Assembly: GCA_029940535.1 (NCBI GenBank)
Contig: JAPYUM010000023.1
Span: forward strand, 1-54,068
Direction: 5' to 3'
Length of the DNA: 54,068 bases
DNA from: Vicinamibacterales bacterium
GTDB taxonomy: Bacteria > Acidobacteriota > Vicinamibacteria > Vicinamibacterales > UBA8438
Part shown: one piece after another, positions 2,485 through 49,670 of the stretch
How the letters are laid out: each line of letters starts with the position of its first letter
Numbering within the stretch: position 1 is the stretch's first letter
Made by a program: the position numbers and the translations under genes
The notes under the pieces: generated by a model
Databases searched by the model: none
Told to the model about the DNA's origin: nothing
The model's input: the letters and a program-made list of their open reading frames with translations, nothing else

Positions 2485-3315
2485 CTAGAACAACGCGGTC
2501 GGACGCCGCTTCCAGTCCGGCATGATGCCTTCCAGCGCCCCCACGTGTGCGCCGGCCTGGGTCAGGAGGTGGTGGAGATCGTTCCCGATGCTGATCAGGC
2601 TGAAGCCTTGCTCGCGGAACTCACCCACACGATCGGTGCCAAACAGGAACAGGCCGAGAATCACGTTGTTCTTTTTGGCCGCCGCCTTCAGCGCGTCCGT
2701 CGCCTCTTTCAATTCGGGCGACGTGTACATCTCGGGGAACTGATATTTCTCGTACAGGCCCATCGACATGCAGAGGTCATTCTGGCCGAGAAACAACAGG
2801 TCGACACCCGGCACCGCCGCGATCTCCTCGATGTTCTCAATACAACTGGCCGTTTCGACCTGCAACGCGGTGATGATGTTGTCATTGGCCGAACCGGCGT
2901 AGCCGAGCAGCCCCCCCTTGTTCATGCATTTCTGCGGAAAATAGACTGAACGCGTCCCCGCCGTGGGATACCGCGTGCAGCTCACCGCCTGGCGGGCTTC
3001 GTCCGCGGTATTGATGTACGGCACGAGCACGCCGTCGGCCCCGACGTCCAGCGACTGCTGGATACCGGCGCGATCCGCGTACCCGGTGACCCGCACCAGC
3101 GATTTGGCCCCGCCGGCCGCGATACCCCCGATCATGTTGGACAGGGTCTCGTAGCCCATCGGACCATGTTGGGAATCAACCAGCAGCCAGTCGTAACCGG
3201 AGTGGGCCAGTTGTTCCACGACCGTGGTGCTGTGCGAGTTGATGAATAGTCCCAATTTTGGGGTGTTGTTTCGAAGAGCGGCCTTGAATTCCGCACCGGT
3301 CAGACTGTCGCTCAT
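2485..3315 (-). CDS. HpcH/HpaI-family class II aldolase
   Basis: Cytoplasmic metal-dependent pyruvate-type aldolase or lyase of 276 aa, related to 4-hydroxy-2-oxoheptane-1,7-dioate aldolase (HpaI). The key HpaI residues are present with a constant +5 offset: His50 in VDSQHGPMG, Arg75 in VRVTG, and the metal ligands Glu154 (QVETA) and Asp180 (LGQNDL). GADGVLVPYINT is the substrate-loop motif. The frame stays open 89 codons further upstream, but the ATG at 3315 has a strong AGGAGA ribosome binding site and opens the conserved domain, so the longer start is rejected. The PQQ dehydrogenase follows after 7 nt. The family cleaves various 2-keto-3-deoxy acids, so the substrate is not assigned. Confidence 0.92.
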   Translation of the reverse strand: MSDSLTGAEFKAALRNNTPKLGLFINSHSTTVVEQLAHSGYDWLLVDSQHGPMGYETLSNMIGGIAAGGAKSLVRVTGYADRAGIQQSLDVGADGVLVPYINTADEARQAVSCTRYPTAGTRSVYFPQKCMNKGGLLGYAGSANDNIITALQVETASCIENIEEIAAVPGVDLLFLGQNDLCMSMGLYEKYQFPEMYTSPELKEATDALKAAAKKNNVILGLFLFGTDRVGEFREQGFSLISIGNDLHHLLTQAGAHVGALEGIMPDWKRRPTALF

Positions 3316-3425
3316 GTAGCTTCTCCTCTGCTGCGATGTAATGTGTGGTTCGCGGTTCGCCGCCTTCGCGCGACGACAGGCGCAAAGTATACCCGGGGAC
3401 CGCCGAGGCCGCGGTCCCGCCGACA

Positions 3426-5783
3426 CTAGTCCCTGAGATCGAACATCCGGCTGAACTTGAGAATCAGGCTGCGGCCACCACCGGCCGGAATCGTCTCGTG
3501 CAGGCCGCGGGTGTCGTTGTAGACCAGAAAGAGGCCGGTATTGGCCTGACCCAGCAGGCCCAGACGAAGATTCGTCGACCACAGATCGGCGCTATCGTTG
3601 TATTGGATCAGGGCCTGCACAAAGCGGCGCGGCGTGAAATTGTAGGCGACCTGGGCACTCGTGAGATTGGCGATGAAGTGGCCGCCCGGCAGGTCCACGT
3701 CGTTCCGGCTCCACTCGATGGCGGCATTGAACGCATCGCCGGTCCGAATGTTGATCGTTGGCCCCCAGGTGGCTCGGTGGCCGCCGAAGAAGCCGCCGAT
3801 CCGCGTGCGGAGGCCAACGCTCACCGGCGCGCCCCGATTCGACTCGTAGGCGAGTTGTGCTTCGTGATGGTTGTAGGTGCCGATCGGCACCGTCACACCA
3901 TCGGCAATCTCGAAGGCCTCGATGACCCCCTCTCCGGTGATGTTCCACGCGGTCTTGATCAGCGTGCTGTCATTGAACTCCAGGTCGTTGTCGAGGTGCA
4001 GAAAGGAACTCTGCGCGAACCCGTCGAACAGCCAGAACCGGTTGAAGGTCGCGTGGGGGCGAATCTGTTGCAGCTTGAGAAAGTTCTTTGGCCGCGTAAT
4101 GAACGAAAACCCGGAGTCGATGTTTCGAAAGCCACGATCTCCGCGCCGCAGAAAGCCGACCTCTGGATTGAAGTCATCCGCGACCTCGACGTACCCGAGC
4201 GTAAACCGCCACCGCTCTGAGTTGTAGTCCCAGGCCAGGTTGTACGCGTGGTCGGCCTCCTCCAGCCCGGGGGTTGACGTCTTGGCCACGAATCCAGCGA
4301 CCTGTCCGTTCTCCCCTATCCCTACACGGCCGTCCACGGCAACGGTCCGGTTGAAATTGTCGGGCCCCGCCCCGGAACCCGTCGCTTGGCGGTTCACGAA
4401 CAGCGCCCCGATCTGTGAACTGTTCGGCAGGTCTCGCACCACTCGAGCCACGCTGAAATTGTTGGCCGGCGTCTCGCTGCCGACCGCCTCCGTCTGCATG
4501 TTGAGCAGCCCGACAGATACCGTGTCCGACACCTTGCCGGACACCCGCGCGCCTCCCAGAATCGGAATCTCGCGTCCGTCGGCGCCAATGCCGATGCGTC
4601 GGCTGAAGAACAGCTCCGTCTGGGCCGGATTCCCGCCAGCCACCTGGCGAACGCTGCTCACCGAGAACACCCCGGCGTTCTCGAGGAAGAACGGGCGTTT
4701 CTCCGGAAAAAACAGGTTAAATCGGTCCAGATTGATCTGCTGACGGTCCACTTCGACCTGAGCGAAATCCGTGTTGTAGGTCAGGTCGAGGGTCAGGCTG
4801 GGGGAGATCGCGTATTTCAGATCGACCCCGATGTCGCCAACGGCCGTCGTGCGCTCGCGGACGTCGCTATGGCCAATCTCGCCGGTCACATACGGCACGA
4901 TTTTCACGCCGCGCTCCTCCGCCGGGGGCACCCGAACGCCGGTCACGTGCCCCGCGAGTGACAGCCGCAGGAGGTTGTATTGCCGTGGAAGGGGCGCCCA
5001 GTAGGCAACCTCGTTTCGACGCCGAATGTTTCGCTGGATGTTCACGCCCCACGTCTGCACATCACGGGACGGGTAGTTCAGAGTCCGGAACGGGATGGAG
5101 AACTCGGCGCTCCACCCGATGTCGGAGACCGCCGTCCGCACATCCCACACACCGTCCCAGTTACCGTTGAACCCGGCGCCGGACCCGCTGGATGTGGTCG
5201 TACTGCGGCCGAGTCGGCCTTCGCCGGCGTTCACCACCTGACCGTCATACTCCTGACCGGCTGGGCTGGTTCCGAAGACGAAACCGCTCCGCTGGTCGAG
5301 GAACGTATCGAGGATGATCTGAATGCTGTCGCCATCGTCCAGCGACGCATCTCGACGACTGTCCGCGACAGTGATCGCCCCGGCTTCCCCGTCATAGCAG
5401 ACCACCCCGATATAGAGCGTTGTGTCGGAGAAGACGAACCGCACCTCGGTCTTCTCCGAGGACGGCTCCCCTTCATCGGGGCGGGTCTGCCAGAACTCTG
5501 CCGTGGGGTAGGCCTCGGACCAGGCCGGGTCACCCATGACCATCCCGTCCATGACGGGGGCCTGTTCCACCTCGACCGACACGAGCGTGGGTGGCAGCGC
5601 CGGGTCGACGCGCGAACGTGGCTGCGAGGCGGCCGGCCCGGCGGTCACCAAGACCCCGAAGGCCACGAGCCAGGCCAGGCCCGTGTCCCGATCGGCGGCG
5701 GCCCTCGGGTGCAGGCCGTCGAGAGAACGACGGTCGGGCGGCTCGGGCTCACGCATTGCGACACATTCTAGTGCCCTGGGCAT
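3426..5783 (-). CDS. Outer-membrane protein with CBM9-like and DUF5916 domains
   Basis: Large exported protein of up to 785 aa. A hydrophobic segment (GLAWLVAFGVLVTAGPAASQ) at about residues 34-53 fits a signal peptide with a long n-region; starting at the second ATG (5756) shortens this by 9 residues, and no clear ribosome binding site decides between them. Residues about 65-260 look like the family 9 carbohydrate-binding-like fold (PVMDGMVMGDPAWSEAYPT, TEVRFVFSDTTLYIGVVCYD, DGDSIQIILDTFLDQRSG). The rest matches DUF5916, including FNLFFPEKRPFFLENAGVFS and FFSRRIGIG, followed by alternating beta-strands to the C-terminus, suggesting an outer-membrane beta-barrel. Such proteins are common beside secreted hydrolases in Acidobacteriota and Bacteroidota; their function is unproven. 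Confidence 0.82.
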   Translation of the reverse strand: MPRALECVAMREPEPPDRRSLDGLHPRAAADRDTGLAWLVAFGVLVTAGPAASQPRSRVDPALPPTLVSVEVEQAPVMDGMVMGDPAWSEAYPTAEFWQTRPDEGEPSSEKTEVRFVFSDTTLYIGVVCYDGEAGAITVADSRRDASLDDGDSIQIILDTFLDQRSGFVFGTSPAGQEYDGQVVNAGEGRLGRSTTTSSGSGAGFNGNWDGVWDVRTAVSDIGWSAEFSIPFRTLNYPSRDVQTWGVNIQRNIRRRNEVAYWAPLPRQYNLLRLSLAGHVTGVRVPPAEERGVKIVPYVTGEIGHSDVRERTTAVGDIGVDLKYAISPSLTLDLTYNTDFAQVEVDRQQINLDRFNLFFPEKRPFFLENAGVFSVSSVRQVAGGNPAQTELFFSRRIGIGADGREIPILGGARVSGKVSDTVSVGLLNMQTEAVGSETPANNFSVARVVRDLPNSSQIGALFVNRQATGSGAGPDNFNRTVAVDGRVGIGENGQVAGFVAKTSTPGLEEADHAYNLAWDYNSERWRFTLGYVEVADDFNPEVGFLRRGDRGFRNIDSGFSFITRPKNFLKLQQIRPHATFNRFWLFDGFAQSSFLHLDNDLEFNDSTLIKTAWNITGEGVIEAFEIADGVTVPIGTYNHHEAQLAYESNRGAPVSVGLRTRIGGFFGGHRATWGPTINIRTGDAFNAAIEWSRNDVDLPGGHFIANLTSAQVAYNFTPRRFVQALIQYNDSADLWSTNLRLGLLGQANTGLFLVYNDTRGLHETIPAGGGRSLILKFSRMFDLRD

Positions 5784-13107: not shown

Positions 13108-13483
13108 TTGCAGCCAGGCCGAACGCCAGTGGTGTCTCCCTATGGCGTGGCCCCAACGGACACCGCTGGCACCACGCTCACGTATCCGTCAATCGTACAA
13201 CCTGACACGCGACACAACAATGGCGAACGGGATTGGTGCCAGAGCTGGCGCGATCAGGGCGTGTGAGGGAGAAGAGGCGGGTAGGACAAATCGTCGTGGG
13301 GGGGCGTGTGCGCGACAGCGTGCCGGTGTCAGTCAGGGAATCACGCGGCTCCGCCACCGCACCCGTCTGATTCTTGCTGGCACGACGGCGCTAGGACCCG
13401 ATCAGGTCGGGTCCTTAGGCCGCCCCGACCAGGACAGGGGCACGGCCGGCGCGCTGGCTCCGTAGCACGTCCAACTCGAGCAG
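13108..13483. other. Intergenic region upstream of the FG-GAP operon
   Basis: No coding sequence is supported on either strand across these 376 bases; the short open frames here show no family pattern. The left part should hold the promoter of the FG-GAP/TPR operon, but no clear -35/-10 pair was found. The right part holds a hairpin at 13393-13415 and a possible in-frame extension of the PAS gene (13415-13483). Confidence 0.5.
13393..13415. terminator. Hairpin downstream of the PAS gene
   Basis: A perfect 9 bp inverted repeat (AGGACCCGA / TCGGGTCCT) encloses a 5 nt loop. It lies about 70 nt beyond the annotated stop of the PAS gene and right after the stop of its readthrough extension. No T-run follows, so it is only a candidate terminator or mRNA-stabilising hairpin. 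Confidence 0.45.
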
Positions 13484-14152
13484 TTACGTTCGGGCTCGGT
13501 CTAGTGCCTGTCCGACCCTCCGGCGCTCCACCTCGCGCTCAGCCACGAATTTTCGCTCTCGGTCCTCCGCTGCCTGCTGGTGCTCCACTGACTGCTGCCG
13601 GAGCTGCTCCTCGAGTTGCTTGGACGCCTGGGTGGCGCTGTCCGACGGGTGCCGAAGTTGGTCCTCGAACTCACGCAGGTCGGTGAGATCCCGAGTGACC
13701 ATGAGCACCGCGGTGCCATGATCGGACGGTCGTTCGAGCGGCACCGCGTCGCTGACCACATCTCGCGACCGAGCGCCGGGCAGGACCATCAGATACTCGA
13801 GCGACCCGCTCTCCCCTTGGCTCACCCGGCGAACGAAGTCGTCCACGCGTTCGCGATCCGTCAATGAGACAAAGTCCTGATAGAACTGACCCACGCCATT
13901 GGCACCCATCAGAGCGACATGCGCGGCGTTCATGGCCAGCACCCGTCCGCCGGCCGTGACCTCCGTGAGGCAGCCGGGCTGATGTTCGACAATCTCCCGA
14001 AGGCGGTTGCCCGCGTCGGAGCCGAGCGGTTGGGGGTCAGGCTCGTCGGGGTGGAGCGGATCGAACGCGTCGAGCGCCTCGAGCGCATCTCCCGCCGGCA
14101 CGCCGGTGTCGGCTGGTTCCGCCGCCGGGCGGGTCAGCCCGATTGTCGTCAC
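13484..14152 (-). CDS. PAS-domain protein with C-terminal coiled coil
   Basis: Cytoplasmic protein of 222 aa with one PAS domain (about residues 50-155) and a long helical tail. PAS features are LREIVEHQPGCLTEVTAGGR, VLAMNAAHVALMGAN, a middle YLMVLPGARSRDVVSDAVPL strand pair and the closing GTAVLMVTRDLTDLREFEDQ. The tail, rich in Q, E and R (ASKQLEEQLRQQSVEHQQAA), is a predicted coiled coil. There is no kinase, cyclase or DNA-binding domain, so it is either a stand-alone sensor or the shortened form of a longer one. The GTG at 14152 has GGGAG upstream and no coding pattern precedes it, so the 169-codon upstream open frame is excluded. After the TAA stop the same frame continues for 22 heptad-like codons. 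Confidence 0.7.
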   Translation of the reverse strand: MTTIGLTRPAAEPADTGVPAGDALEALDAFDPLHPDEPDPQPLGSDAGNRLREIVEHQPGCLTEVTAGGRVLAMNAAHVALMGANGVGQFYQDFVSLTDRERVDDFVRRVSQGESGSLEYLMVLPGARSRDVVSDAVPLERPSDHGTAVLMVTRDLTDLREFEDQLRHPSDSATQASKQLEEQLRQQSVEHQQAAEDRERKFVAEREVERRRVGQALDRART

Positions 14153-14627
14153 GAGGCACTCCCTTCGAACGCTGCGCCGGGGCTCGCCCTCCGGCAACCA
14201 AGTCACTATTCGATAGCAAGCCACGCGCCAGCGTCCGGCCGCCGATCCGGAACCGCGGCCCTCCTCGCCGTCCGGGCGAGAGCCCGCGTCGCATCGATTC
14301 CAGCGTTGCGCCTGCCCCGGTGGGCAATTCGCGCGAAAACCCGGGCCGTCCCGAACCGATTCGGTGGATGCGGCTCCGGTCGACCACGGGGCCGGGGCCC
14401 GTAGACCTGGGGTCGGCCACCCGACGAGTCCCGCACGCCCGGCGTGGGCCGGGAGGGGCACCGACCTGCGTCCGCGTTCTTCACGCCGACACACGTCTGA
14501 TTCGCTACCTTGCCTGGTGTGGTCGGAACAGTGCGTCCCTCGAAATTGAGTCGTCGCCGACCGAGGAACCCGCGACCCCGAATTTGGCACGGCCATTGAG
14601 ATAGAGGGGAAGGGACAGGAAACGACA
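14153..14627. other. Divergent intergenic region between PAS and PilZ genes
   Basis: This 475 nt stretch separates the PAS gene (minus) from the PilZ pseudogene (plus). Its open frames look like GC-driven shadows, without recognisable domains. The right end holds a sigma-54-like promoter (14584-14599) and a purine-rich ribosome binding site before the PilZ ATG. Confidence 0.5.
14584..14599 (+). promoter_or_regulatory. Sigma-54-like -24/-12 promoter
   Basis: TTGGCACG, four bases, then TTGA matches the sigma-54 consensus TTGGCACG-N4-TTGC at all but the last defined position (the -12 GC is GA). It lies about 30 nt upstream of the PilZ pseudogene ATG. Sigma-54 control of PilZ/PAS regulators is common. 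The -12 mismatch may reflect decay along with the gene. No enhancer-binding protein gene is in the window. Confidence 0.45.
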
Positions 14628-15209
14628 ATGACGCTATCTACGGCCCCAGCGGAGCTCACCGCGGCTACGGGCGAAGAACTCGAGGCAGATCCGACACCGG
14701 GCCGGGCGATTCCCGCCCGGGATGATCAGGCGAGCGAACGACGGCGGGACCCTCGGTTGCCGCGTGACGCGGTTCCGGGCATCGGGTCGGTCACCTAGTA
14801 TCCGAGAGGCCCCGCCAAGCTCCTGAACATTTCAAAGTCGGGCATGCTGGTCAGTTGCGCGCGGCGTCTGATGCCGGACTCGCCCGCCAGTTCGTCTTGC
14901 GGAGCGGGGACCAGGACCTCGTCGTCACGGGACGTGTGTCACACCGAACGGCCAACTGCCCATCAGCGTCTCAGACATCAGCGACGGGGGATGTTTCATC
15001 GCGCAGGCCAACACCGTGGCCGCAGGAGACCAGCTCTCGTTGCACATCGAGGTCCCGGACGCAGAACCGATCATCACGGCGGCTAGGTGTTGAGTGCCGA
15101 TCCGGAACAGGGGTTCGCAGTTCGTTTTCTCGACCGCGACGAGGCCGGGGCCGTCGCGCCGGCCACGGACGACAGCAGCCCGTCGACGGGTCTGTTCAAC
15201 GACTGGTAG
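14628..15209 (+). pseudogene. Decayed PilZ-domain gene (c-di-GMP receptor type)
   Basis: The region encodes recognisable PilZ sequence split over three frames. Frame 1 from the ATG at 14628 gives ERRRDPRLPRDAV, an in-frame TAG at 14796-14798, then AKLLNISKSGMLVSCARR. The next frame gives RQFVLRSGDQDLVVTGRVSH. The third gives LPISVSDISDGGCFIAQAN and ends after PDAEPIITAARC. The first frame resumes with VLSADPEQGFAVRFLDRDE and stops at 15207-15209. The breaks, near 14888, 14950 and 15087, each fit loss of one base. Two PilZ-like halves are present with less sequence between them than expected, so an internal deletion is possible. A good ribosome binding site remains. PilZ domains bind cyclic di-GMP through RxxxR and DxSxxG motifs; RRRDPR and DISDGG are visible. 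Confidence 0.75.
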
Positions 15210-15312: not shown

Positions 15313-16290
15313 CTACGGACGTAGCTCTCGCCCAAGCAACTCGAGGTTCCGCGCGCCCGCCAAGATTCCGTGGAGCCCGATGTTGCCTTCGTGACAGGCA
15401 TACTCGAACAGCGGCCCGTCAGTCCGACGCAGCGGCATCATGACCGTGTACGGCGCCGTATACACCGTTGTGTCGGTCACGGTGTACTCGTAGGCGACGG
15501 TGTCGGAGTCGAGACGGGTCAGGCGTTCGACGAGATGCATGTCGGTCGAGGTGAGCCCACTGCTCCCGCCGGCGAACTGGTCGGTCTCGATGACCAGCGT
15601 GTCACCCTCCCAGCGGCCGCGGGACACGCCGCTGCGTTGCGAGAACGGCAGGTCTGGCCCATCGCCGATCGGGATGACTCGAGCGTTGTGCACCATTTCG
15701 TTGAGAATGGTCACGTAGCCCGGCGTCTGGAAGATCATCACGTTGTTGTTGTACGCGCTCGACCGCATCGGGGGACCTGCGTTGAACCCCATGATGCATC
15801 GGTCGCCCGAGCTGCGGTTTTCATACGAGTCATACATGTGCTCGCGCCGATCGGCCCCGGCCTCCCGCGCCGCCATCTGCGCCGACTCCGTTCGCGCCGG
15901 AAGACGGCCGTTCGCCGGATCGACGACGAGCGACGTCCGCTTGTCCGAGGTCAACTCGATACCTCGTTCATACCAGAACTCGTTGTAGGAGAGCACGCCT
16001 CCGTCGGCGCGCGGCGCATAGCCACCCGAACCCTTCTCCGGGTCGAAGAGGTCGCGATTCTGGCGTGTTCTCTCTGACGCCTCGAATTCTGCAGCGGTCT
16101 CCGCATCGAGCGTCTCCAGCTCGGCGAACTGACTGGGTCGCTGAAACGGGGTGATCGTGCGAAACGTGAACGTACCGGAGACGTCCGGCTGGCCATCCGG
16201 GGTCCGCATCGACTGTGCCGTAGCCGACAGCGGCACGAGCGTCAACGCCATCGCCGACGCCAGCGAGACCGCAAGAACTCTTCCTGTCAT
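15313..16290 (-). CDS. Secreted protein of an uncharacterised family
   Basis: Exported protein of 325 aa with a clear signal peptide (VLAVSLASAMALTLVPLSATAQ). The body starts with a TPDGQPDVSGTFTFRTITPF region and has conserved-looking segments such as GRWEGDTLVIETDQFA, SYENRSSGDRCIMGFNAGPP and a C-terminal EYACHEGNIGLHGILAGARN. I recognise these motifs from many hypothetical proteins of Acidobacteriota and other environmental bacteria, but know no function. It lies downstream of the enolase-superfamily and PhoD-like genes on the same strand, after a 149 nt gap. Confidence 0.8.
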   Translation of the reverse strand: MTGRVLAVSLASAMALTLVPLSATAQSMRTPDGQPDVSGTFTFRTITPFQRPSQFAELETLDAETAAEFEASERTRQNRDLFDPEKGSGGYAPRADGGVLSYNEFWYERGIELTSDKRTSLVVDPANGRLPARTESAQMAAREAGADRREHMYDSYENRSSGDRCIMGFNAGPPMRSSAYNNNVMIFQTPGYVTILNEMVHNARVIPIGDGPDLPFSQRSGVSRGRWEGDTLVIETDQFAGGSSGLTSTDMHLVERLTRLDSDTVAYEYTVTDTTVYTAPYTVMMPLRRTDGPLFEYACHEGNIGLHGILAGARNLELLGRELRP

Positions 16291-16439: not shown

Positions 16440-17534
16440 CTACGCGACCAGATAGGCCGCCACGGCGTCTTCATTCCACTCAATGCCGACCCCCGGTCGG
16501 TCAGGAATGTGAAGCTGCCCGTCCCGAACCGCAAATGGTTCCCGCAGAATCGGGTCGGCCCAACTTTGCCATTCCAGCCAGTGCGCAGTGTCCGTGACCC
16601 GCATCACGTGCGCCGCGACTTCCGGGTAGAGATGCGTCGACATCGGTACCCCCGCGGCGCCGGCAATAGCGGCCGCTCGCATCCACCCTGTCACGCCACC
16701 AATACGCATGAAGTCGGGCATGACGAAGTCGCAGGCGCCCATCTGCAGGGCTCGGTGGAGGGCGCGAGGCCCGAAGAAGTTCTCGCCGATCTGGATCGGC
16801 GTCTTCAGATCCGCGGTCAGCTTTTGATATCCATCGAGGTCGTCATACACGATCGGCTCCTCGATCCAGGCCAGTCCCAGGTCGTCGATTCGGCGACAGC
16901 GGTCCATGGCTTCCGCCAGATCGAGCCCCTGATTGAAGTCGACCATCAGGTGCATGTCGTCGCCCACCGTGGCTCGCACCGCGTCGATCGTCGCGAGGTC
17001 GTCGGTGATCCGTTCGCGGCCCAGCCGCAGCTTCAGCCCGGTGAAGCCCCCTTCACCACGGAGCCGCGCCGCTTCCTCCGCCACGACCGACGGGGCGTGG
17101 AGCCAGAGCCCGTTGCTGTTGTAGGCACGCACGGGCCCGAGCGCACCGCCGAGGAGCCGACACAACGGCTGGTCGGCCGCCTTGGCCACGGCGTCCCACG
17201 CCGCCATGTCCAGACCGGACACGGCAATGGCCGCGACCCCCTCATACCCGACGAACTGGAGCGACTGCCTGGCCGTCCGATACAGGTCGGCCGGTGCCAC
17301 CGGCTGGCCTTTGAGCAGGTCACCCAGATCGTGAAGCGCCGGCACGAGATACCGCATCGTCTTCGGTGTGTACGGCTCGAGATAACTCCGACCGACGACG
17401 CCTTCCTCGGTCAGCAGGTCGATCAGGATCAGCGGCCACTCGGTGATGGTGGCGATACGGGCGACCACCGGTCGCTCGAGGGTGAGCAGAACGGGTCGGG
17501 CGGTCAGACTGCGGATGGTCAGTGTGGTTGGCAT
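16440..17534 (-). CDS. Mandelate racemase/muconate lactonizing-type enolase superfamily enzyme
   Basis: Cytoplasmic enzyme of 364 aa that abstracts a proton alpha to a carboxylate and works through an enolate held by a divalent metal. All catalytic positions of mandelate racemase are found with a constant +4 offset: Lys168 and Arg170 in GLKLRLG, metal ligands Asp199 (MVDFNQ), Glu225 (IEEP) and Glu251 (GENF), and Asp274 (PDFMRIGG), His301 (STHLYPE) and Glu321 (LEWQSW). This places it in the MR subgroup; Arg instead of Lys at position 170 favours racemases or sugar-acid dehydratases over strict mandelate racemase. It follows the PhoD-like gene by 27 nt. The substrate is unknown; an aldonic or hydroxy acid from the PQQ enzymes would fit. 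Confidence 0.92.
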   Translation of the reverse strand: MPTTLTIRSLTARPVLLTLERPVVARIATITEWPLILIDLLTEEGVVGRSYLEPYTPKTMRYLVPALHDLGDLLKGQPVAPADLYRTARQSLQFVGYEGVAAIAVSGLDMAAWDAVAKAADQPLCRLLGGALGPVRAYNSNGLWLHAPSVVAEEAARLRGEGGFTGLKLRLGRERITDDLATIDAVRATVGDDMHLMVDFNQGLDLAEAMDRCRRIDDLGLAWIEEPIVYDDLDGYQKLTADLKTPIQIGENFFGPRALHRALQMGACDFVMPDFMRIGGVTGWMRAAAIAGAAGVPMSTHLYPEVAAHVMRVTDTAHWLEWQSWADPILREPFAVRDGQLHIPDRPGVGIEWNEDAVAAYLVA

Positions 17535-17561
17535 CGCGATGGTCAGCGGGTCGCGCGGATC

Positions 17562-19205
17562 TCACCCGGGTCTGGGTAGTTCCGTCCGGTAGAACGGTTC
17601 CAAACGGTCAATGGCGTTGACCGATTCCCGGTCGACGTCCCACTTGAACTGCTGCAGCACCATCCGGTCTGGCAGAAAATCAACCAGCGTGAAGCCGTGG
17701 TCCTCCACGGGGGCGACCGACTCCTCGACGTCGAGGTGCGCGGGCGTCGTCGCTCCGATGCCCCGGACGACCGACGGGAAGCCCCTGATGGACGTGCCAA
17801 TCGGGCCGCTCAGTACGGTCGTGATCGGCCGCGCACTGAGATTGACCTGTCCCGCCCTATGCATCCGTCCCACCCCGACGGCATGCAGGTCGCCGCTGAT
17901 TATCAGCGGCGCCCGCTCCGGCTGAGTGCCGATCGCCTGCGCCAGCCGGTCGTGCTGTTTCAACCAGCCCTCTTGCCAGTAGGGCTTGGCCACCGCCGTC
18001 GTGAGGGCCGCGTTCTCCCGGTCGAGGATATCGGGATACCACTCGCCCCACTTACCTGCGCTCCACCCGAACGGATTCGACGGGGCGTGCACCAGATGGC
18101 TGACCCCAGACGCGCCCGTCCGGTCCATCAACCAGCGCTCCACCTGAGCATCGATAAAAACGGCGTTCGGGCCGGCCAGACTCATTGTGCGTCGGACGTC
18201 GTAGAGCAGGATCTCCGCCAGATTTCCGTATCGTAGGGTGCCGAAACTCTCCGAGAGATCCCCTCGGCCAGTGGCGGACGACCAGGGGAGCCCGGCCGGC
18301 CGACTGGCATCCGGCAGAAACTCGGGGTAATACAGTTGTTGGGTCGCACGAGCCAGCTGGAGCTGAAACCACGGGATCGGAAAGCTGGCGATGTCGTCGG
18401 TCACCGCATCGTTCTCCCAGTGGTCGTGGTCGTCCTGCAGGAAGAACACCGGAGTCGATCGAAAGTCGCTGCCGTAGACCGGGACGATTTGCGGTCCAGC
18501 CGCCGCCTTCATCGCCGTCTCGTTGCTCGTGCTGAACACCGTGTCGGCCTGGTCGAAATTCGACCGCCGACCGCTGGCGCTCAGCTGGCCTGCGTTCTCG
18601 CCCTGCCAGGTATGCAGATCCCAGTAGATGTGATCGCCGTTGGCCACCGCCGCATCCGGCGCGAAGGAGAGCGCCCGACGAAGTAGGCGATTGCGAATGA
18701 CCGTGGGCAGGAACCCTTGCCGTTGGCCGATCCCGTCATACGACCCGCCGGGCCCGCCGGCGCAGGTAAAGAACAGCATGCGAAACCGCTCGGGCCGCGC
18801 ATCGGGGGAGGGGAACGTCGACAACGGCCACGGTTCGCAAAGTGCGCGACCGTCAGCCGCCTGCAGCGAGAGCGTATAGCGGCGCGCCGGCTCGAGATCG
18901 GTCGCATAGAACTGCCAGTGCTCGCCCGCCGTGTCGTTCATGCGACCGACGACGGCACCGGCACCGACACGAAGTGTGGGCGTGGCCGACAGCGCCCGGT
19001 CGAACGACACCTTGAGCAGCATCCGCGAGTCGCTGACCGTCGGCAGCAGATGACGGACGTTGCCCGCATCCCAACCTTGCGCTGCCGGCGGCGCCCCTTG
19101 CTCTGCCATCGCACCGAGCGGGAAACGTCCAAAAAACGCCGCACCCATCGCGCCAGCGGTACCGGACAAAAACCTCCGACGATCGACGGGCCATCGTTTG
19201 GTCAT
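17562..19205 (-). CDS. PhoD-like metallophosphatase, Tat-exported
   Basis: Predicted exported phosphatase or phosphodiesterase of 547 aa. The N-terminus has a Tat signal (RRRFLSGTAGAMGAAFF). An N-terminal fibronectin-like part (about 55-145) precedes the metallophosphatase core with motifs ANGDHIYWD, FLQDDHDHWEND and IISGDLHAVGVGRMH, which supply metal ligands in PhoD-like enzymes. It differs from classical PhoD in lacking an obvious CRADYR-like cysteine segment, so the metal set may differ. CGGAGG precedes the ATG by 6 nt, and a TATAAT lies at 19224-19229. The enolase-superfamily gene follows after 27 nt. Confidence 0.85.
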   Translation of the reverse strand: MTKRWPVDRRRFLSGTAGAMGAAFFGRFPLGAMAEQGAPPAAQGWDAGNVRHLLPTVSDSRMLLKVSFDRALSATPTLRVGAGAVVGRMNDTAGEHWQFYATDLEPARRYTLSLQAADGRALCEPWPLSTFPSPDARPERFRMLFFTCAGGPGGSYDGIGQRQGFLPTVIRNRLLRRALSFAPDAAVANGDHIYWDLHTWQGENAGQLSASGRRSNFDQADTVFSTSNETAMKAAAGPQIVPVYGSDFRSTPVFFLQDDHDHWENDAVTDDIASFPIPWFQLQLARATQQLYYPEFLPDASRPAGLPWSSATGRGDLSESFGTLRYGNLAEILLYDVRRTMSLAGPNAVFIDAQVERWLMDRTGASGVSHLVHAPSNPFGWSAGKWGEWYPDILDRENAALTTAVAKPYWQEGWLKQHDRLAQAIGTQPERAPLIISGDLHAVGVGRMHRAGQVNLSARPITTVLSGPIGTSIRGFPSVVRGIGATTPAHLDVEESVAPVEDHGFTLVDFLPDRMVLQQFKWDVDRESVNAIDRLEPFYRTELPRPG

Positions 19206-19499: not shown

Positions 19500-20432
19500 T
19501 CAGGGTGTGACCGTGACGACGACATCCTCCGCCGTAAAGAGGGCGCCGTCGCTCGCGAGGGCCCGGAGCACGTAGGTGCCAGGCTCGTCGAAGGTGGCCA
19601 CCGCCTCCCACTTGCCGTCAGGTGGCACCGGTGGAATCTCGAACGGGGGCGCCCAGGGCGAGTTGGCGTAGGGCCGGGTGTCCTGCCACACCTTCATCTG
19701 AACCGGTTCGAAGGCGACGGCGCCGCTCCCCCGGTAGACGAACCACGACAAGCGCAGCCCATTCGAATTCCCCGGTACGATCTGCTGTGGTGGACGGTAG
19801 GCCGGGTGCCGTTGACTACGCGGCCCCCGAGGCGCGCGTGGACGCAGGGTGACACCGGCTTTGGTCGACGACGGAATGCCGTCCTCATCGGAGGCAAACA
19901 CCACCAGCGGCAGCGGTTCCCCGACTCGCACGCGACGCGGCTGGTCGACTCCGAGCGTCACCGCCGGCGGTTCATTCCACTGCCAATCCTGACTCACGCC
20001 GCCGCGGTTCGCTCCGACCTCGGTCCCGATCACCTGTTTGTCGACCAAGTAGTCGGTCCGCAGAGAAGCGTACGCACGATGGGTGACCCCGTGGGTCGTC
20101 AGCGTCCAGACCAGCTCCTGGTCGCCGAAATCGGCCGGCACCTCGATCTGGAACAGAAACAGGTTTCGACGGGGCAGGAAATGGGTAGGTTGCCCCTGGT
20201 CCGGCCCGCCCGGCTCGATCTGATTCTCTGGCCCGATGGGCACGTCCAGTTCTTCTTCCCAGTTGTCGTTCATGTAGCCGAAGAACAACGTGTAGGTCCC
20301 GTCATCGTTCTGCCACCATCCCTCGAACGCCGGAGAGACCGGCTGGCCGCTCGAATAGGTGAGCTGGGCGCCGGCTCCGCCGGGGACGAAGAGCAGGGCC
20401 AGGGCACTGATGAGGAGAAGTCGAGAATACAT
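19500..20432 (-). CDS. Secreted protein of unknown function
   Basis: Exported protein of about 310 aa. The ATG at 20432 opens a standard signal peptide (MYSRLLLISALALLFVPGGA) and leaves a 17 nt gap after the upstream gene; the longer frame start would overlap that gene. The mature part has WWQNDDGTYTLFFGYMNDNW near the N-terminus and ends in DEPGTYVLRALASDGALF followed by a beta-strand, an Ig-like pattern. This protein type seems to occur repeatedly next to cytochrome c/copper-monooxygenase-like genes in environmental genomes (from memory). A partner role is inferred; no catalytic motif is seen. Confidence 0.75.
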   Translation of the reverse strand: MYSRLLLISALALLFVPGGAGAQLTYSSGQPVSPAFEGWWQNDDGTYTLFFGYMNDNWEEELDVPIGPENQIEPGGPDQGQPTHFLPRRNLFLFQIEVPADFGDQELVWTLTTHGVTHRAYASLRTDYLVDKQVIGTEVGANRGGVSQDWQWNEPPAVTLGVDQPRRVRVGEPLPLVVFASDEDGIPSSTKAGVTLRPRAPRGPRSQRHPAYRPPQQIVPGNSNGLRLSWFVYRGSGAVAFEPVQMKVWQDTRPYANSPWAPPFEIPPVPPDGKWEAVATFDEPGTYVLRALASDGALFTAEDVVVTVTP

Positions 20433-20449
20433 AGCTGCCGGGCACCCCG

Positions 20450-21871
20450 TCAGGGAGCCGTCTCCTGTGACGGGAAACGGACCTGGCATAGCGGACAGCC
20501 AATGACGACATCATTCTTGGTCAGTCCGAGGCGGTCACGCCGCTCACCCATTTCCCGCTCGAATTCCTCATCGGTCAACGCAATCCCCTCACCGAGGTCG
20601 ATGAACATGTTGGCCACGGACCGCCGTCCCCCACCGCCCCAATTCCTCGGGTCAGCCACGTTCCGGTTCCCGGGCGTGGTGTCCATGTAGCCAATCACGT
20701 GCAAGATCGTCCCCTCGGGCAGAAGCGGCGCCGCATCGTCGGCGTAGACGTAGCTACGCACCCAGTTGTGGTCGTAGCCCGCGCACGTCAAGGTCTGCAC
20801 GGCGGCGCCCCAAATCGCCTCCAGGCACATCCGAATCCCCGGCGCGTGCATGTGGGGCTCGAAGCTCAGAATCTTCGTGTGCTGCTCGAGCACGGCGTAG
20901 GCGTGCAGCTCCTGGTCGGCCATGGTCGGCTTGATCGAAATGTCGACACCGTTGCCGGTGAACCGCCGAACCCACGTCACGCTGGGTTTGTACCCAACCG
21001 GATGGAGCTTGAAGGCAAATTCCAGATAGGCCTTCGTCTCGCGTCCATTCGAGTGGAGATGGGCCGTCTCGAGATTCAAGACCGACCCGGCGGCCAGAAT
21101 GCGACCCGCGTTCGGCGGAAAGATGTCGGCGTTGCGTCCGACCTCATGAACCGGCCACACCGTCGTGGTGTCGGCCGTGAACGCGTCCGGCTGTTCATCT
21201 TCGACGACGTGCGACGAATAGTTCAGGTGATGCAGCACGAAGCGTCCGCCGACCGTATTGCTCGCACCATCTTTCGGAATGTCGTTGACCTCGCGGATCT
21301 CCACAGCTTCGACATACCGGTCCTCGGTGAGCCCGGTGGGGACGATGCCGATCGGCTCCCAGCGGTCGGCGCCGGTTGCCAGCACCGTGACTTCACGCGA
21401 CCGCAAGACCAGGTCGGGGGTCCCGATCCGCCAACTCTCCGTGTCGCCCGCGACATACTTTGGCGGTGGCAGATCGGCCGGGTCGCCACGAGGCGCGCCG
21501 TTGTCAGCCCAGGTCGCGATGGCTTCAATTTCGCTCTCGCTGAGCGAGGGATCGTCTTTGAACTGCTGGATGCCGATGTTCTTTTCGATGAACCACGGCG
21601 GCATCGCGCCTCGCTCATTGCGCAACGCGGTCCGGCTCTTCATCGCGCGCGCCCACGGCCGCGCCTCCTCGAATGTCAGCAACGACATCGGCGCCACCGA
21701 GTCAGGCCGGTGACAATGCTGACAGCTACGCTGAAGAATCGGCACGATGTCCCGGGTGAACGTCACATCTCCCGTGGCTGCGGTCTGAGCCGCCGACACC
21801 CCGGAGGTCATCGCCGTCGCCAGCCCGACGAACGCCGCGAGCCGGAACGTCTGTCGACGCGTCGTGTGCAT
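20450..21871 (-). CDS. Cytochrome c and copper type II monooxygenase-like fusion protein
   Basis: Exported protein of 473 aa. The ATG at 21871 has GGAG six nt upstream and is preferred over an in-frame TTG two codons earlier. After a signal peptide comes a cytochrome c-like domain with heme motif CQHCH (Cys50, Cys53, His54) and the MSLLTFEEARPWARAMK segment. The C-terminal half (about 170-460) resembles copper type II ascorbate-dependent monooxygenases, with histidine pairs in FVLHHLNYSSH, LETAHLHSNG and FEPHMHAPGIRM. The C-terminus has a CPLC pair. It may oxidise a small organic substrate using heme-delivered electrons; this is inference. The gene is divergent from a PQQ dehydrogenase. Confidence 0.82.
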   Translation of the reverse strand: MHTTRRQTFRLAAFVGLATAMTSGVSAAQTAATGDVTFTRDIVPILQRSCQHCHRPDSVAPMSLLTFEEARPWARAMKSRTALRNERGAMPPWFIEKNIGIQQFKDDPSLSESEIEAIATWADNGAPRGDPADLPPPKYVAGDTESWRIGTPDLVLRSREVTVLATGADRWEPIGIVPTGLTEDRYVEAVEIREVNDIPKDGASNTVGGRFVLHHLNYSSHVVEDEQPDAFTADTTTVWPVHEVGRNADIFPPNAGRILAAGSVLNLETAHLHSNGRETKAYLEFAFKLHPVGYKPSVTWVRRFTGNGVDISIKPTMADQELHAYAVLEQHTKILSFEPHMHAPGIRMCLEAIWGAAVQTLTCAGYDHNWVRSYVYADDAAPLLPEGTILHVIGYMDTTPGNRNVADPRNWGGGGRRSVANMFIDLGEGIALTDEEFEREMGERRDRLGLTKNDVVIGCPLCQVRFPSQETAP

Positions 21872-22069
21872 CGTCAACTCCCTGAACGTACGGTACCGAG
21901 CCTCTGCATGATGATTGCGATCGCGAACGTATCACGCGGATTTTCGACGGTCAATCGACATCGGGCCAGCGCCGACCGCCTCCGCCGGGGTCCAGAAGAA
22001 CCATGCGTCGCCCGTAGGAATCTTGTCCGGGGTCGACTACACTTCCCGGGTCGAAGGAGACCGTCCCCC

Positions 22070-23788
22070 ATGAATCTGACCCGCGCCAACACCCTTTGCA
22101 GTCTCACCATCGCGTCTGCGCTGCTCGCGCCGACACCGTCCGTGGCCCAAAACGTCGACTGGCCGCTCCACAATCTCGATCTGGCCGGCAGCCGTTTCGC
22201 CCAGACCAACCAGATCACGCCAGAGAACGCACATCTGCTCACGCCGCGCTGGCTCTTCCAGCATGGCGTGATCGATGGCGTCAGTAATCAGACGACGCCG
22301 CTGGTCATCGACGGCATCATGTATGTCACCGACTCGCGCGGCAGCGTGTACGCCGTCGATGCCCTCGATGGGCATCTGTTGTGGCTCTACGACGTCACGG
22401 AGCTCCTGGGCGGCGGACGCCAGCAGGGCTACGTCTTCCGGCACCGTGGCGTGACCTACGAAGACGGCGTCGTCTACAGCGCGGCCGGGTCGTTCGTCTT
22501 CGCGCTCGACGCCAAGACCGGTGAACCGTTGCCCGGATTCGGTGTCGATGGGCAAGCCAGTGTCATTCTCGACGTACTCAAGCAGCAGTACCCGGACGTT
22601 GAAACCGCCATTTCGATGGGGTACTGGTTCACGACCGCGCCCCAGATTCACGACGGCGTGCTGTATGTCGGGTCGACCCGTAGCGAAAGCCGGATCCCGG
22701 GTGGGCACGTCCTGGCCATCGACGCCAAAACGGGAGAGGTGGAGTGGCACTTCAATACCGTGCCGCAGAGTGAGGCGGACCAAGGATGGGACATCGCTGG
22801 TCCGACCTGGAACGGCGGCGGCCGTGAGGGAGGCGGCATCTGGGAAACGCCGTCGGTCGATGCCGACCTCAACATGATGTACGTCGCCGTGGGCAACCCC
22901 TTCGGCGACAGCACGCTGCGGGAGGGCCTCAACCTGTTCTCCGACTCGGTGGTCGCGCTGTCACTCGATACGGGTCAGCTCCAGTGGTACTACCAGCTGG
23001 TGCACCACGACGTCTGGGACTACGACAACGGCTCGCAGCCGATTCTGTTCGACATGGAGGTGGACGGCGAGCCGGTCAAAGCGCTGGCCCAGGCGAACAA
23101 GAACGGCTGGATGTATATCTTGAACCGAGAAACCGGCGACCCGGTCCATCCGATCATCGAGACACCCGTATCGACCGAGACCGACCGGGAGGGCGAGGTG
23201 CCGTACCCAACCCAGCCGATTCCGCACAAGGCGAACGGCGAGGTCATGGAGCCGGTATCTCCGGTCTTCCCCACCGACATCCCCGACGAGCACGCGGCCG
23301 ACAAGACGCTCGTGCCTCAATACACGCCTCTGGGCCAGGACCAGATTTTCGCGCCTGGCATGGGCGGCGGCGCCAGCTACGGGCCCATCGCCTACAGCGA
23401 CGACACCGGACTGCTGTATATCAACGCGATCGACCAACCATTCAACTCTGGCCGCGGCCCGAAAGGGTATTTCTCGGCCTACGACCCGACGACCGGGGAG
23501 CTGGTCTGGCGGCAGATCTTCGAAGGCTATGGGCAGGCCGGCGCGGTCGTGACCAAGGGCGGCGTCGTCTTCGTCGGTACCGGCAGCAACACCGCCGGGT
23601 ACTTCTTCGCGTATGACGCCAGGACCGGCGAGGAGCTCTGGCGGTATAACACCGGCTCCGGCGTCTTCGCGTCACCAGCCGTGTACATGGTGGACGGACA
23701 GGAGTTCGTCACGGTCGCCTCCGGCGGCGGCTCGCGGGGCCGCCGCGGCGGCGACCTCATCCTCAGCTTCGCGTTGCCGAAACAGTAG
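22070..23788 (+). CDS. PQQ-dependent dehydrogenase, alcohol/methanol-type
   Basis: Periplasmic quinoprotein of 572 aa. AAGGAG about 10 nt before the ATG at 22070 and a signal peptide ending at PSVAQ set the start; the frame is open for 457 further upstream codons, which overlap the divergent gene and are rejected. Propeller motifs include SRFAQTNQITPENAHLLTPR, GGGIWETPSVDADLNMMYVA, the active-site-like VHHDVWDYDNGSQPILFD and GGGASYGPIAYSDDTGLLY. The final blade ends in GSGVFASPAVYMVDGQEFVT. No heme c motif is present, so a separate cytochrome is needed; the neighbouring divergent cytochrome c protein is a candidate. The substrate is not assigned. Confidence 0.9.
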   Translation: MNLTRANTLCSLTIASALLAPTPSVAQNVDWPLHNLDLAGSRFAQTNQITPENAHLLTPRWLFQHGVIDGVSNQTTPLVIDGIMYVTDSRGSVYAVDALDGHLLWLYDVTELLGGGRQQGYVFRHRGVTYEDGVVYSAAGSFVFALDAKTGEPLPGFGVDGQASVILDVLKQQYPDVETAISMGYWFTTAPQIHDGVLYVGSTRSESRIPGGHVLAIDAKTGEVEWHFNTVPQSEADQGWDIAGPTWNGGGREGGGIWETPSVDADLNMMYVAVGNPFGDSTLREGLNLFSDSVVALSLDTGQLQWYYQLVHHDVWDYDNGSQPILFDMEVDGEPVKALAQANKNGWMYILNRETGDPVHPIIETPVSTETDREGEVPYPTQPIPHKANGEVMEPVSPVFPTDIPDEHAADKTLVPQYTPLGQDQIFAPGMGGGASYGPIAYSDDTGLLYINAIDQPFNSGRGPKGYFSAYDPTTGELVWRQIFEGYGQAGAVVTKGGVVFVGTGSNTAGYFFAYDARTGEELWRYNTGSGVFASPAVYMVDGQEFVTVASGGGSRGRRGGDLILSFALPKQ

Positions 23789-24750: not shown

Positions 24751-25248
24751 CTACCGGGTGAGGACCTGCGATCCGCTCACGGGGCCCAGACAGCTTGTCC
24801 CTGAGTAGTCGATCTCGATCTGCTCGCCGACGACGCGTGCGGTTCCGTTCAGAGTGAATGAACACTGCACTCCGCCCGAAGTGGCTAGACCGTCCGCGGT
24901 GACGGTCACCAGCCCGTTGACGTAGGTGCCGGTTGCGCTACCAGTCAGCACGATGCCATCCGCACAGGTCGCACTGAACGTGCCGGTGTACGTGTCTCCC
25001 TGCTGCTCGTCGAAGGTGAATTGCAGATCCGTGCACGACTCCGCCGAGGGCAGGCCTACGCCGGTACTGCTCGCCGCTGCACTGAAGCTCCAAGAACCCA
25101 GGAGCACCGGCGAGATGGTGACGTCGGAAGGCGCCAACGGCGCCAAGGGCGTGTGCTCACTCTCGCGCGCAAACTCGCAGCCGACAAGCAGGATTGTCAG
25201 CACATCGATCACGCTTGTCATCCCTCGTCGTCGCAGTCGCTGTCGCAT
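24751..25248 (-). CDS. Small lipoprotein, unknown function
   Basis: Lipoprotein of 165 aa. The ATG at 25248 has GGGAGAG upstream; the frame is open further upstream but without coding character. A short hydrophobic segment (SVIDVLTILLVGC) gives the lipobox LVGC. The mature part is a beta-rich domain with repeated Thr/Ser/Gly strands (LLGSWSFSAAASSTG, GDTYTGTFSATCADG, GSATGTYVNGLVTVTADG) and four to five cysteines that could form disulfides. Similar small lipoproteins are frequent in Acidobacteriota. It is divergent from the next PQQ dehydrogenase gene. Confidence 0.65.
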   Translation of the reverse strand: MRQRLRRRGMTSVIDVLTILLVGCEFARESEHTPLAPLAPSDVTISPVLLGSWSFSAAASSTGVGLPSAESCTDLQFTFDEQQGDTYTGTFSATCADGIVLTGSATGTYVNGLVTVTADGLATSGGVQCSFTLNGTARVVGEQIEIDYSGTSCLGPVSGSQVLTR

Positions 25249-25459
25249 GCGCGTCTCTCCCGTGGACCGTACGTTTCGTCCGATTCCGAGCGACATGCAG
25301 GCGCAACACCTGTGCCGTGGAGCCGAGGGCACCAAAACCCTCGACGTCTCGACGCCGCCGCCGGGAACACCTGCGGCGCGTGTCCGACCGGACACCAACG
25401 GCGGGTTGTGTGACACAGGCCACTTCTGGCCCGTCGACAGGGCGAACCTCGGTTCCCCC

Positions 25460-25465: not shown

Positions 25466-25521
25466 CGCGCTATTCCGTGGTGCCGACACTGCCCCGAGAT
25501 CGTGGGGCTGGGAGCCTGAAC

Positions 25522-27300
25522 ATGCCTCGTGCTTCGAGACCCGTTCTTCGAACGGTGGTCATCCTCGCCGTCGCCCTCTCTTGGTGGTCGGTTCCAACGT
25601 TCGCGCAAGCCCCGGCGTCCGACAGCTTTGTTCCGGTCACCGACGCCATGCTGCACAACCCCGCCCCGGAAGATTGGTTGATGTGGCGCCGGACCCTCGA
25701 TGGTTGGGGCTACAGCCCGCTGGACCAGATCACTCGCGACAACGTGGGCGACCTGCGCATGGTGTGGACCCGGGCGATGAACCGAGGCAATCAACAGGGC
25801 ACGCCACTCGCGTACCGTGGCGTGCTCTACATGCCGAACCCGGGTGACGTGATCCAGGCGATTGACGCCGCGACCGGCGACCTGATTTGGGAGCACCGCC
25901 GCGAACTACCGGACGACCTCATGGAACACATGGGGGGACTGGTGACGACCAAGCGAGCCATCGCGATCCACGGGAATGTGATTCTCGATACCACCGGTGA
26001 CGACTTCCTGATGGCACTCGATGCCTCAACCGGTGAGATGGCGTGGGAAACGCAGATCCTCGACTACCGGGTCAACCCGGCACTGCAAACAGCGGGGCCA
26101 ATCGTGGCCGACGGCAAGGTGATTTCGGGACGAAGCTGCCGAGGCACCGCGACCGCCGATGCCTGCGTCATCACGGCTCATGACGCCGCTACCGGGGCCG
26201 AGCTCTGGCGGCGGCGGACGATTCCGGGGCCGGGCGAACCGGGCGACGAGACGTGGGGTGGGGTCCCGTTCGAAGACCGGAAACATGTCGGCACCTGGAT
26301 GGTGCCGAGCTACGACCCCGAGTTGAAGCTCATCTATATCGGCACCTCCGTCACCTCACCGGCGCCGAAGTTCATGCTCGGCGGGGCCGACAACGCGCAC
26401 CTGTATCACAACTCGACGTTGGCGCTCGATGTCGAGACCGGCGAGATCGTCTGGTACTACCAGCATCTGAACGACAACTGGGATCTCGACCATCCGTACG
26501 AGCGGCTCTTGATCGATACCGCGGTGACCCCCGACGCCTCGGCGGTCAGCTGGATCAACCCCCGACTCCGACCGGGCGAGGTCCGAAAAGTGATGACCGG
26601 TATTCCGGGCAAGACCGGGGTGGTCTACACGCTGGACCGAGAGACCGGGGAGTTCTTGTGGGCCACACCGACGGTGGCGCAGAACGTCATCAACGACATC
26701 GATGGCGCGACGGGTGAGGTGACGGAGAACCCCGAGCTCATCTTCACCGCCTTGGGTCAGGAACTGCTGGCTTGCCCGAGCTGGGCCGGCGGCAAGGACT
26801 GGGAGGCCGGCGCCTACAGTCCCTTGACCCACACCATGTATTTTCCGCTCCGTAACGCGTGCCAGCGTCTGCTGACCACCACCGAGGGCGGGAACGCCAC
26901 CTACGCGCTCGCCGCACGCCACCAACTGGCCCCTGGCACCGACCAACTCGGCACTGTGCGGGCCATTTCTGTCGACACCGGACGAACCGACTGGCTGTAT
27001 GAACAACGGGCGGCCACCATGTCGCTCGTGGCGACGGGAGGCGGGCTGCTGTTTGGCGGCGACACCAACGGGCGGTTCCGTGCGTTCGACCAGAACACCG
27101 GCGCCATCCTGTGGCAAATCAACTTGGGCTCACCCGTCAGTGGCTACCCGATTACGTTCGCCGTCGACGGGCGGCAGTATGTGGCGGTGAGTACCGGGAC
27201 CGCCGGCAACGCCTCGATCAACCTTCGGATGACGCCCGAATTGCGGCCAAGCGCCGGCAACAACCTCTTCGTCTTCGCCCTGCCGGAGTCCAATCGATGA
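25522..27300 (+). CDS. PQQ-dependent dehydrogenase, methanol/ethanol family-like
   Basis: Periplasmic quinoprotein of 592 aa. GGGAG seven nt before the ATG at 25522 and a signal peptide (TVVILAVALSWWSVPTFAQ) set the start. Propeller motifs are [20 protein letters not shown], the LALDVETGEIVWYYQHLNDN strand followed by WDLDH where the catalytic Asp of this class lies, CPSWAGGKDWEAGAYSPLTH (close to the GGxxW motif of methanol dehydrogenases) and a final AFDQNTGAILWQINLGSPVS blade. No heme motif is present. It is distinct from the PQQ enzymes at 396 and 22070, so the genome probably has several periplasmic oxidases of different specificity. Confidence 0.9.
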   Translation: MPRASRPVLRTVVILAVALSWWSVPTFAQAPASDSFVPVTDAMLHNPAPEDWLMWRRTLDGWGYSPLDQITRDNVGDLRMVWTRAMNRGNQQGTPLAYRGVLYMPNPGDVIQAIDAATGDLIWEHRRELPDDLMEHMGGLVTTKRAIAIHGNVILDTTGDDFLMALDASTGEMAWETQILDYRVNPALQTAGPIVADGKVISGRSCRGTATADACVITAHDAATGAELWRRRTIPGPGEPGDETWGGVPFEDRKHVGTWMVPSYDPELKLIYIGTSVTSPAPKFMLGGADNAHLYHNSTLALDVETGEIVWYYQHLNDNWDLDHPYERLLIDTAVTPDASAVSWINPRLRPGEVRKVMTGIPGKTGVVYTLDRETGEFLWATPTVAQNVINDIDGATGEVTENPELIFTALGQELLACPSWAGGKDWEAGAYSPLTHTMYFPLRNACQRLLTTTEGGNATYALAARHQLAPGTDQLGTVRAISVDTGRTDWLYEQRAATMSLVATGGGLLFGGDTNGRFRAFDQNTGAILWQINLGSPVSGYPITFAVDGRQYVAVSTGTAGNASINLRMTPELRPSAGNNLFVFALPESNR

Positions 27301-32273: not shown

Positions 32274-33626
32274 TTAGATGTCTGCCAACGCCGACAGTTC
32301 CACAAGCCGCCCGGTGCTGTCACCCAACCCGTCATCAAGTCGAACACCCGCCTTGTCAAGCTGACTCACGAGCAGGTTCGTCATTGGCGTATCGCGCGGG
32401 TATTGGAGGTGACGCCCTCCCTCGAGCTGCCCCGCCCCCCCGCCAACCAGCAGCAACGGCAGATCAAAGTGCAGGTGTTTGTTGCTGTCACTCAACGACG
32501 CGCCATACATGAGCAAGGAATGGTCAAGGAGCGAACCATCCCCATCCGGCGTGTTCTCCAGCTCATCAAGAAAGTGCCTGAACAGCGACACGTGGTAGGT
32601 GTTGATCTTGGCAAGCTGCGAAAGTCGTGTCGTGTCGTAACGATGGTGTGACAACCCATGGTGCGAGTCAGGAATCCCGATCTCCGGATAAGCACGCCCA
32701 TTGAGCTCACGCCCCAGCATGAAGGTAAACACGCGAGTCAAATCAACCTGATACGCCAAGGCCATCAGGTCGAACATCAGCTCGACGTGCTCCTGATACG
32801 ACTCCGGAATGCCGACTGGTCGCTCGAGTTCGGGCAACTCCGTATCGTTCTGTTCCGAGAGCTGAATTCGACGTTCAATCGCCCGAACCGCATCGAGGTA
32901 CTGGGTCACGCGAGCTCGATCACTCGAACCCACCTCACGCTGCAACCGCGCCAGGTCACTGGTGATGGCATCGAGAATGCTGCGGTCTTTTTGAAATTCT
33001 AATCGCCGGTTGGCCGGTGAACCACCTTCACCAAAGAGCCGCTCAAAGATGACACGCGGATTGTTTTGCATCGGCAGCGGCGTCGTGGCATCCCGCCACG
33101 CGATGGTGTTCATGTAGATGCAGCTGTATCCGTTATCGCAACTCCCAACGAGAAAGTCCTGATCGATGGCGAGCTCCAGTGAACTGAGCGGCGTGGTACG
33201 CCCAAGCTGGTCCGCGGCAATCTGATCGGCCGTCTTCCCGGCGCGAACATCCGCGCCTTCTGTTTCACGGGGATGCACACCGTTCAACCATGTGGCGGTC
33301 GCACGTGTGTGCTCGCCGTTCCCGTCCCCAAGCGCCTCAGCCTGACCTTGTGCCAACCCGCTGACCACAACCGTCTGTCCTCGATACGGTGCAAGCGGGC
33401 TCAGTGTCGTCGATAGTTCGAGCGACCCCGTGGTCGCGGGTGTCCATGCATCCATCGCCATCCCGTTTGGACTGTAGACCCAGCCCAGACGCCGGACCGG
33501 CTCCGCCGCCCGGCCGGAAATGCCAGACAACGCGGGCACCATCGCTTCGAGCATCGGGAGCGCCAGCGTCGCGCCCACACCACGCAACACGGTTCGACGC
33601 GCGAGGGTCTTCTTCGAAATGATCAT
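32274..33626 (-). CDS. DUF1552 family protein, Tat-type signal
   Basis: Exported protein of 450 aa. The start at 33626 has GAGGAGA upstream and its ATG overlaps the stop of the DUF1592 gene by 4 nt. The N-terminus (LARRTVLRGVGATLALPMLE) fits a Tat signal. Family segments are RRLGWVYSPNGMAMDAWTP, VVVSGLAQGQ, GDGNGEHTRATATWLNGVHP and GASLSDSNKHLHFDLPLLLV. DUF1552 proteins are related to the DUF1501/sulfatase-like fold and are almost always next to DUF1592 proteins. The biochemical role is unknown. Confidence 0.9.
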   Translation of the reverse strand: MIISKKTLARRTVLRGVGATLALPMLEAMVPALSGISGRAAEPVRRLGWVYSPNGMAMDAWTPATTGSLELSTTLSPLAPYRGQTVVVSGLAQGQAEALGDGNGEHTRATATWLNGVHPRETEGADVRAGKTADQIAADQLGRTTPLSSLELAIDQDFLVGSCDNGYSCIYMNTIAWRDATTPLPMQNNPRVIFERLFGEGGSPANRRLEFQKDRSILDAITSDLARLQREVGSSDRARVTQYLDAVRAIERRIQLSEQNDTELPELERPVGIPESYQEHVELMFDLMALAYQVDLTRVFTFMLGRELNGRAYPEIGIPDSHHGLSHHRYDTTRLSQLAKINTYHVSLFRHFLDELENTPDGDGSLLDHSLLMYGASLSDSNKHLHFDLPLLLVGGGAGQLEGGRHLQYPRDTPMTNLLVSQLDKAGVRLDDGLGDSTGRLVELSALADI

Positions 33627-38423: not shown

Positions 38424-38469
38424 CGAGTGTCTCAGAACGAGGGCTCGGATCAAACTTGAAGCCCCGCGG

Positions 38470-43411: not shown

Positions 43412-43609
43412 TCGTCGTCCCCTGCCGCGGTCGGGCCGCGTCATCGTGCGCGTTCGTGCCGCGGCCGCGTCGAGAATCTAACCTCTATTCGCGGCGCCCG
43501 ATGTCGCTCCTACATATGCACTATATCCAACCTCCGCCACGATTCCGCCACGCGCTCGCCGCGCGGTCGACGTGGAACCCGGTCGCTGCGTCGGCCGTCT
43601 ACCGTCACC

Positions 43610-44908: not shown

Positions 44909-44941
44909 CGTCCTGTATCCGTGATGGGCTGGCGGAGAAAC

Positions 44942-49051: not shown

Positions 49052-49092
49052 CGCTGTTCCTCCTCGATTCCCGAGACCCGAACCACCGGTCG

Positions 49093-49551: not shown

Positions 49552-49670
49552 GCCAGAACTCCTTTCCTTCCCCGGGCCGTCGCCAGGTCGCTCGCGTGGC
49601 TTCAGCGTCTTTATACACTGACTGGCGCCTGGCCCTGGCCTAGGAGGCGGCAAAAAAGCGCCGCCGGGGT

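Follow-up and report, generated by a model that had tools for sequence, protein, structure and literature searches.

The locus at 14628–15209 (+ strand) of the 54,068-bp stretch of Vicinamibacterales DNA analysed here (the window) raises the question of whether a PilZ gene that can be followed only by changing reading frame is a decayed gene, an intact gene misread in the assembly, or a gene that is still expressed in some form. An ATG at 14628 opens a frame that runs to an in-frame TAG; beyond the TAG, PilZ-like sequence continues in the original frame, passes into two other frames, and then returns to the original frame, in which the remnant ends at the NDW stop (15207–15209). The distribution of PilZ pieces over three frames given in an initial annotation of this DNA is confirmed. 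The same annotation attributed the frame changes to three successive −1 shifts, and on that point the comparisons with related genomes lead to a different account.

The best-preserved part of the remnant (the mid piece, 14947–15090, + strand) was compared with 60 related genomes at a threshold of E ≤ 0.001, and four were matched: the window's own genome and three members of the same genus, G002 (an Acidobacteria MAG), G003 and G004. In G002 and G004 the gene is open, with products of 254 and 246 aa, respectively. The G002 product has two stretches over the PF07238 (PilZ) threshold, with 68.3 bits in all, and RxxxR and N/DxSxxG motifs can be read in each half of the translated sequence; the G004 product scores 34 bits against PF07238 in its first half only, and its second half is degenerate, with no motifs and no Pfam match. 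We infer that the ancestral gene coded for a two-PilZ protein. c-di-GMP is the ligand of PilZ domains that carry RxxxR and D/NxSxxG, so the open homologue, and the ancestral protein like it, is probably a c-di-GMP receptor, judging from the family. Both open genes adjoin a divergent PAS gene, as the window remnant does; G002 also keeps the window gene order downstream, and in G004 two genes of the window order are missing after the PilZ gene, so that the third follows it directly. A fourth congener, G001, gave no PilZ match; it carries the genes of 16440–19205, and its contig ends before the place of the PilZ gene.

High similarity to this gene is confined to the genus among the genomes searched: at E ≤ 10−12 four of 28 family genomes match, these being the window's own and the three congeners. 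At E ≤ 0.001 homologues are matched in 40 of the 60 relatives, those outside the genus being weak (best E-value 7.9 × 10−14) and nearly all restricted to one domain. A scan of genome contigs, which may omit records closely similar to the window's genome, returned one locus, CALBET010000634.1 (uncultured Acidobacteria MAG), whose product is identical to that of G002. Within the window's own assembly, the DNA of the region used as a query gave one match only (eight of 48 first-look candidates scored), and the G002 protein, with all 20 of its 20 candidates scored, gave two matches at the locus and two more to distant PilZ genes at other places; no second copy of this gene was found in the assembly among the candidates scored, the other PilZ genes there being distant.

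The remnant is a degraded homologue of these 246–254 aa proteins with two PilZ-like halves, and has 194 codons, compared with 255 in G002 and 247 in G004 (stop counted). Its 5′ piece alone has no Pfam match, and is 66% identical to the G002 protein (E-value 2.1 × 10−24). The mid piece, which is part of the second PilZ domain and includes DISDGG (DxSxxG), scores 22.6–23.3 bits against PF07238 on its own, just over the curated cut-off of 22.5. RRDPR with NISKSG is also kept in the window translation, and the second RxxxR is gone.

Relative to the open homologues the window carries four lesions: a nonsense codon, a deletion of 172 bp, and the loss of a single base at two places. The TAG, at 14796–14798, lies inside the first PilZ domain where G002 and G004 both have a sense codon; the initial annotation had recognised it, but set its first base at 14797. 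One single-base loss lies within 14884–14893 (near 14888) by comparison with G002 and G004, and the other within 15080–15090 (near 15084–15087) by comparison with G002, G003 and G004; because the latter is absent from G003, it most simply arose on the window's branch. These two losses account for two of the three proposed −1 shifts, but a single −1 shift at about 14950 is ruled out: the sequences that meet at 14927–14938 in the window, with nothing between them, are separated by 172 bp in G002 and in G004 alike, and the interval 14927–14950 is the scar of a 172-bp deletion. Since 172 equals 3 × 57 + 1, the deletion mimics one lost base. What was removed is the last part of the first PilZ domain together with the beginning of the second, including the RxxxR motif of the latter. 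The overall span is a multiple of three, to which the initial annotation had drawn attention; this is a coincidence with a one-in-three chance, in that 1 + 172 + 1 is divisible by three. Direct-repeat recombination as the cause of the deletion is only weakly indicated, as its ends in G002 agree at seven of 12 bases, a score attained at 20 of 459 downstream places (this one among them). With four lesions, the gene as assembled cannot yield its full product.

The most similar genome by DNA identity among those compared, G003, is broken at the same locus in a different way. Its contig is largely colinear with the window (42,823 of 54,068 bases aligned, counting alignments that reach 80% identity and 500 bases, as for the gap counts below), and alignments over 2 kb are 86–91% identical to the window. 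Of the PilZ gene it retains just the 3′ half, and upstream is the 3′ part of the PAS gene, antisense. The deletion in G003 is the larger one and runs from mid-PAS to mid-PilZ, so that the two genes are joined; the interval from 13129 to 14927, about 1.8 kb in the window, measures about 0.8 kb in G003. Close to its end, the PAS remnant of G003 also appears to shift frame.

Comparison of the window with G003 also bears on whether the remnant is still under selection as a protein. Over 46 codons of the mid piece there are 20 differences, distributed 6/7/7 by codon position, with a dN/dS of 0.82; in the adjacent gene at 15313–16290, the single control gene, the distribution is 16/3/65 and dN/dS is 0.07. 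Third versus other positions differ between remnant and control gene with p = 0.0007 (Fisher test). The remnant thus appears to have lost protein-level constraint, as read from these 46 codons and one control. Against G002, two pieces of the remnant give dN/dS values of 0.34 and 0.26, in line with constraint on the gene that lasted until relatively recent times, and the mid piece differs at 12/5/20 by codon position; the shift between the G003 and G002 patterns over this same piece is not significant (p = 0.27). The two open homologues, in G002 and G004, are only 63% identical in DNA with a dN/dS of 0.45, from which the gene was already weakly constrained.

These data can be set against two ways in which the locus might still be expressed. 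The return to the original frame by the 3′ end is what programmed recoding, with frameshifting and stop read-through, would lead one to look for, but there are four separate disruptions to be bypassed, one of them a 172-bp deletion that takes away parts of the domains, the open homologues need no recoding, and the codon positions change evenly; we consider the chance of such expression to be vanishingly small. A shorter gene, such as a fragment of the second domain that is still translated and useful, would find a candidate in a 73-codon open stretch with the DxSxxG motif. This fragment, however, is without the RxxxR half of the c-di-GMP site and stops in mid-domain, and its differences from G003 have no third-position excess, which makes a useful short product highly improbable.

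The rest of the window provides a control for errors in the assembly. ORFs were called mechanically, and of the 34 obtained one was skipped at the window edge, three (24751–25416, 43378–44460 and 51766–54021) have no match on the G003 contig, and 30 were compared, with matches above 70% identity considered. For 22 of the 34, a match on the G003 contig covers at least 95% of the ORF in a single frame and without a stop, although for one of these, 25477–27300 (73%), the matching sequence does not lie in order along the contig and probably belongs to a paralogue. Among the other eight, 13484–14659 is the PAS gene with a false upstream extension, 32658–33002 and 44921–46303 have no match above 70%, 2485–3582 and 20699–23788 have their 5′ parts in another frame and are probably false upstream extensions, 37765–38619 has one stop in G003, 48020–49618 is 66% covered, and 49742–52162 is 87% covered with one stop in G003. 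Gaps that are not multiples of three inside called ORFs mostly cancel or sit near the ORF ends, the clearest exceptions being in the doubtful 5′ parts of 2485–3582 and 20699–23788.

An intact gene marred by an error in sequencing or assembly might be entertained, given that two of the four lesions affect one base each and that the draft assembly is in 228 contigs. A 172-bp deletion, however, is not a homopolymer error, the G003 homologue is broken separately by a different lesion, the substitutions in the remnant look neutral, and the 22 ORFs above match G003 over nearly their whole length in a single frame. The combination of in-frame ORFs, the deletion, and the broken G003 copy makes such an error very unlikely, and the judgement in the initial annotation that general sequencing error is not the easiest explanation is upheld on these grounds.

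Several features of the flanking genes were recorded in the course of these comparisons. The overlapping ORFs 32274–34478 and 33623–36085 (− strand) were considered as another frameshift and this was ruled out; they represent two neighbouring genes, the first of DUF1592 type and the second a DUF1552 (HXXSHH) gene (32274–36085), and their overlap of about 850 bases is probably a spurious upstream extension. The 325-aa protein of 15313–16290 (− strand), adjacent to the remnant, is a member of a very large unnamed paralogous family, with 114 matches in its own genome and 57–89 in four congeners, and no match in Pfam, NCBIfam or PDB sequences (E ≤ 1 in each). The genes at 17562–19205 and 19500–20489 (− strand) code for proteins of 547 and 329 aa that are about 96% conserved in G003 and have no Pfam match at E ≤ 0.001.

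The neighbours of the remnant had been described as intact, and this holds for many of them, but the divergent PAS gene, the probable former partner of the PilZ gene, ends at a TAA where the G002 and G004 genes continue. In the window it occupies 13484–14152 (− strand) and codes for 222 aa with a PAS_4 match (PF08448, 30.7 bits); the G002 gene (272 aa) reads on for 36 residues, and the G004 gene (at least 232 aa, being cut by the contig end) for at least 23. Alignable residues continue beyond the window stop. The dN/dS of the window PAS gene is 0.38 against G002 and 0.19 against G004, and since the latter equals the value between G002 and G004 (also 0.19), relaxed constraint is not established; the evidence for decay of this gene in the window is mixed. 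The PAS and tandem-PilZ proteins perhaps work together. We regard it as possible, and somewhat short of probable, that this divergent pair, found at high similarity only within the genus among the genomes searched, constitutes one c-di-GMP signalling unit that is being lost in parallel, through different lesions, in closely related species.

We conclude that the PilZ remnant is very probably a genuine and ordinary pseudogene, in agreement with the initial annotation that the gene is broken: it has disrupting lesions relative to open homologues at the matching locus, and protein-level constraint seems to have gone. The intact counterpart anticipated in related genomes is present as open copies in G002 and G004, but in G003 it is broken by another lesion. 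We propose an ancestral locus with two divergent genes, one (− strand) for a PAS-domain protein and the other (+ strand) for a protein with two PilZ domains. In the window lineage the PilZ gene would have acquired the nonsense codon, the two single-base losses and the 172-bp internal deletion, and in G003 a larger deletion would have fused mid-PAS to mid-PilZ. As both loci are broken, PilZ function would have been lost along both branches, or before their split, and the remnant would now be changing without protein-level constraint. One probable c-di-GMP receptor locus would be dispensable in this acidobacterial genus. For annotation, the locus is a warning that a large deletion can be concealed in what looks like a series of −1 shifts with no net effect on the frame; its importance beyond annotation is little.

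In relation to known systems, the G002 homologue resembles PilZ proteins (PF07238) in its two passing stretches (68.3 bits) and in having motifs in both halves, whereas both domains are broken in the window and the second half is degenerate in G004. The second domain of G002 also scores 41.1 bits against TIGR02266, a paralogue domain family (gmx_TIGR02266), but this is under the curated cut-off of 68.7, and the domain is therefore not a member. With ordinary bacterial pseudogenes the window remnant shares a nonsense codon, small indels, a deletion, open homologues in relatives and relaxed constraint, and it differs from them in nothing unusual, except that a different lesion disrupts this locus in G003, the most similar genome.
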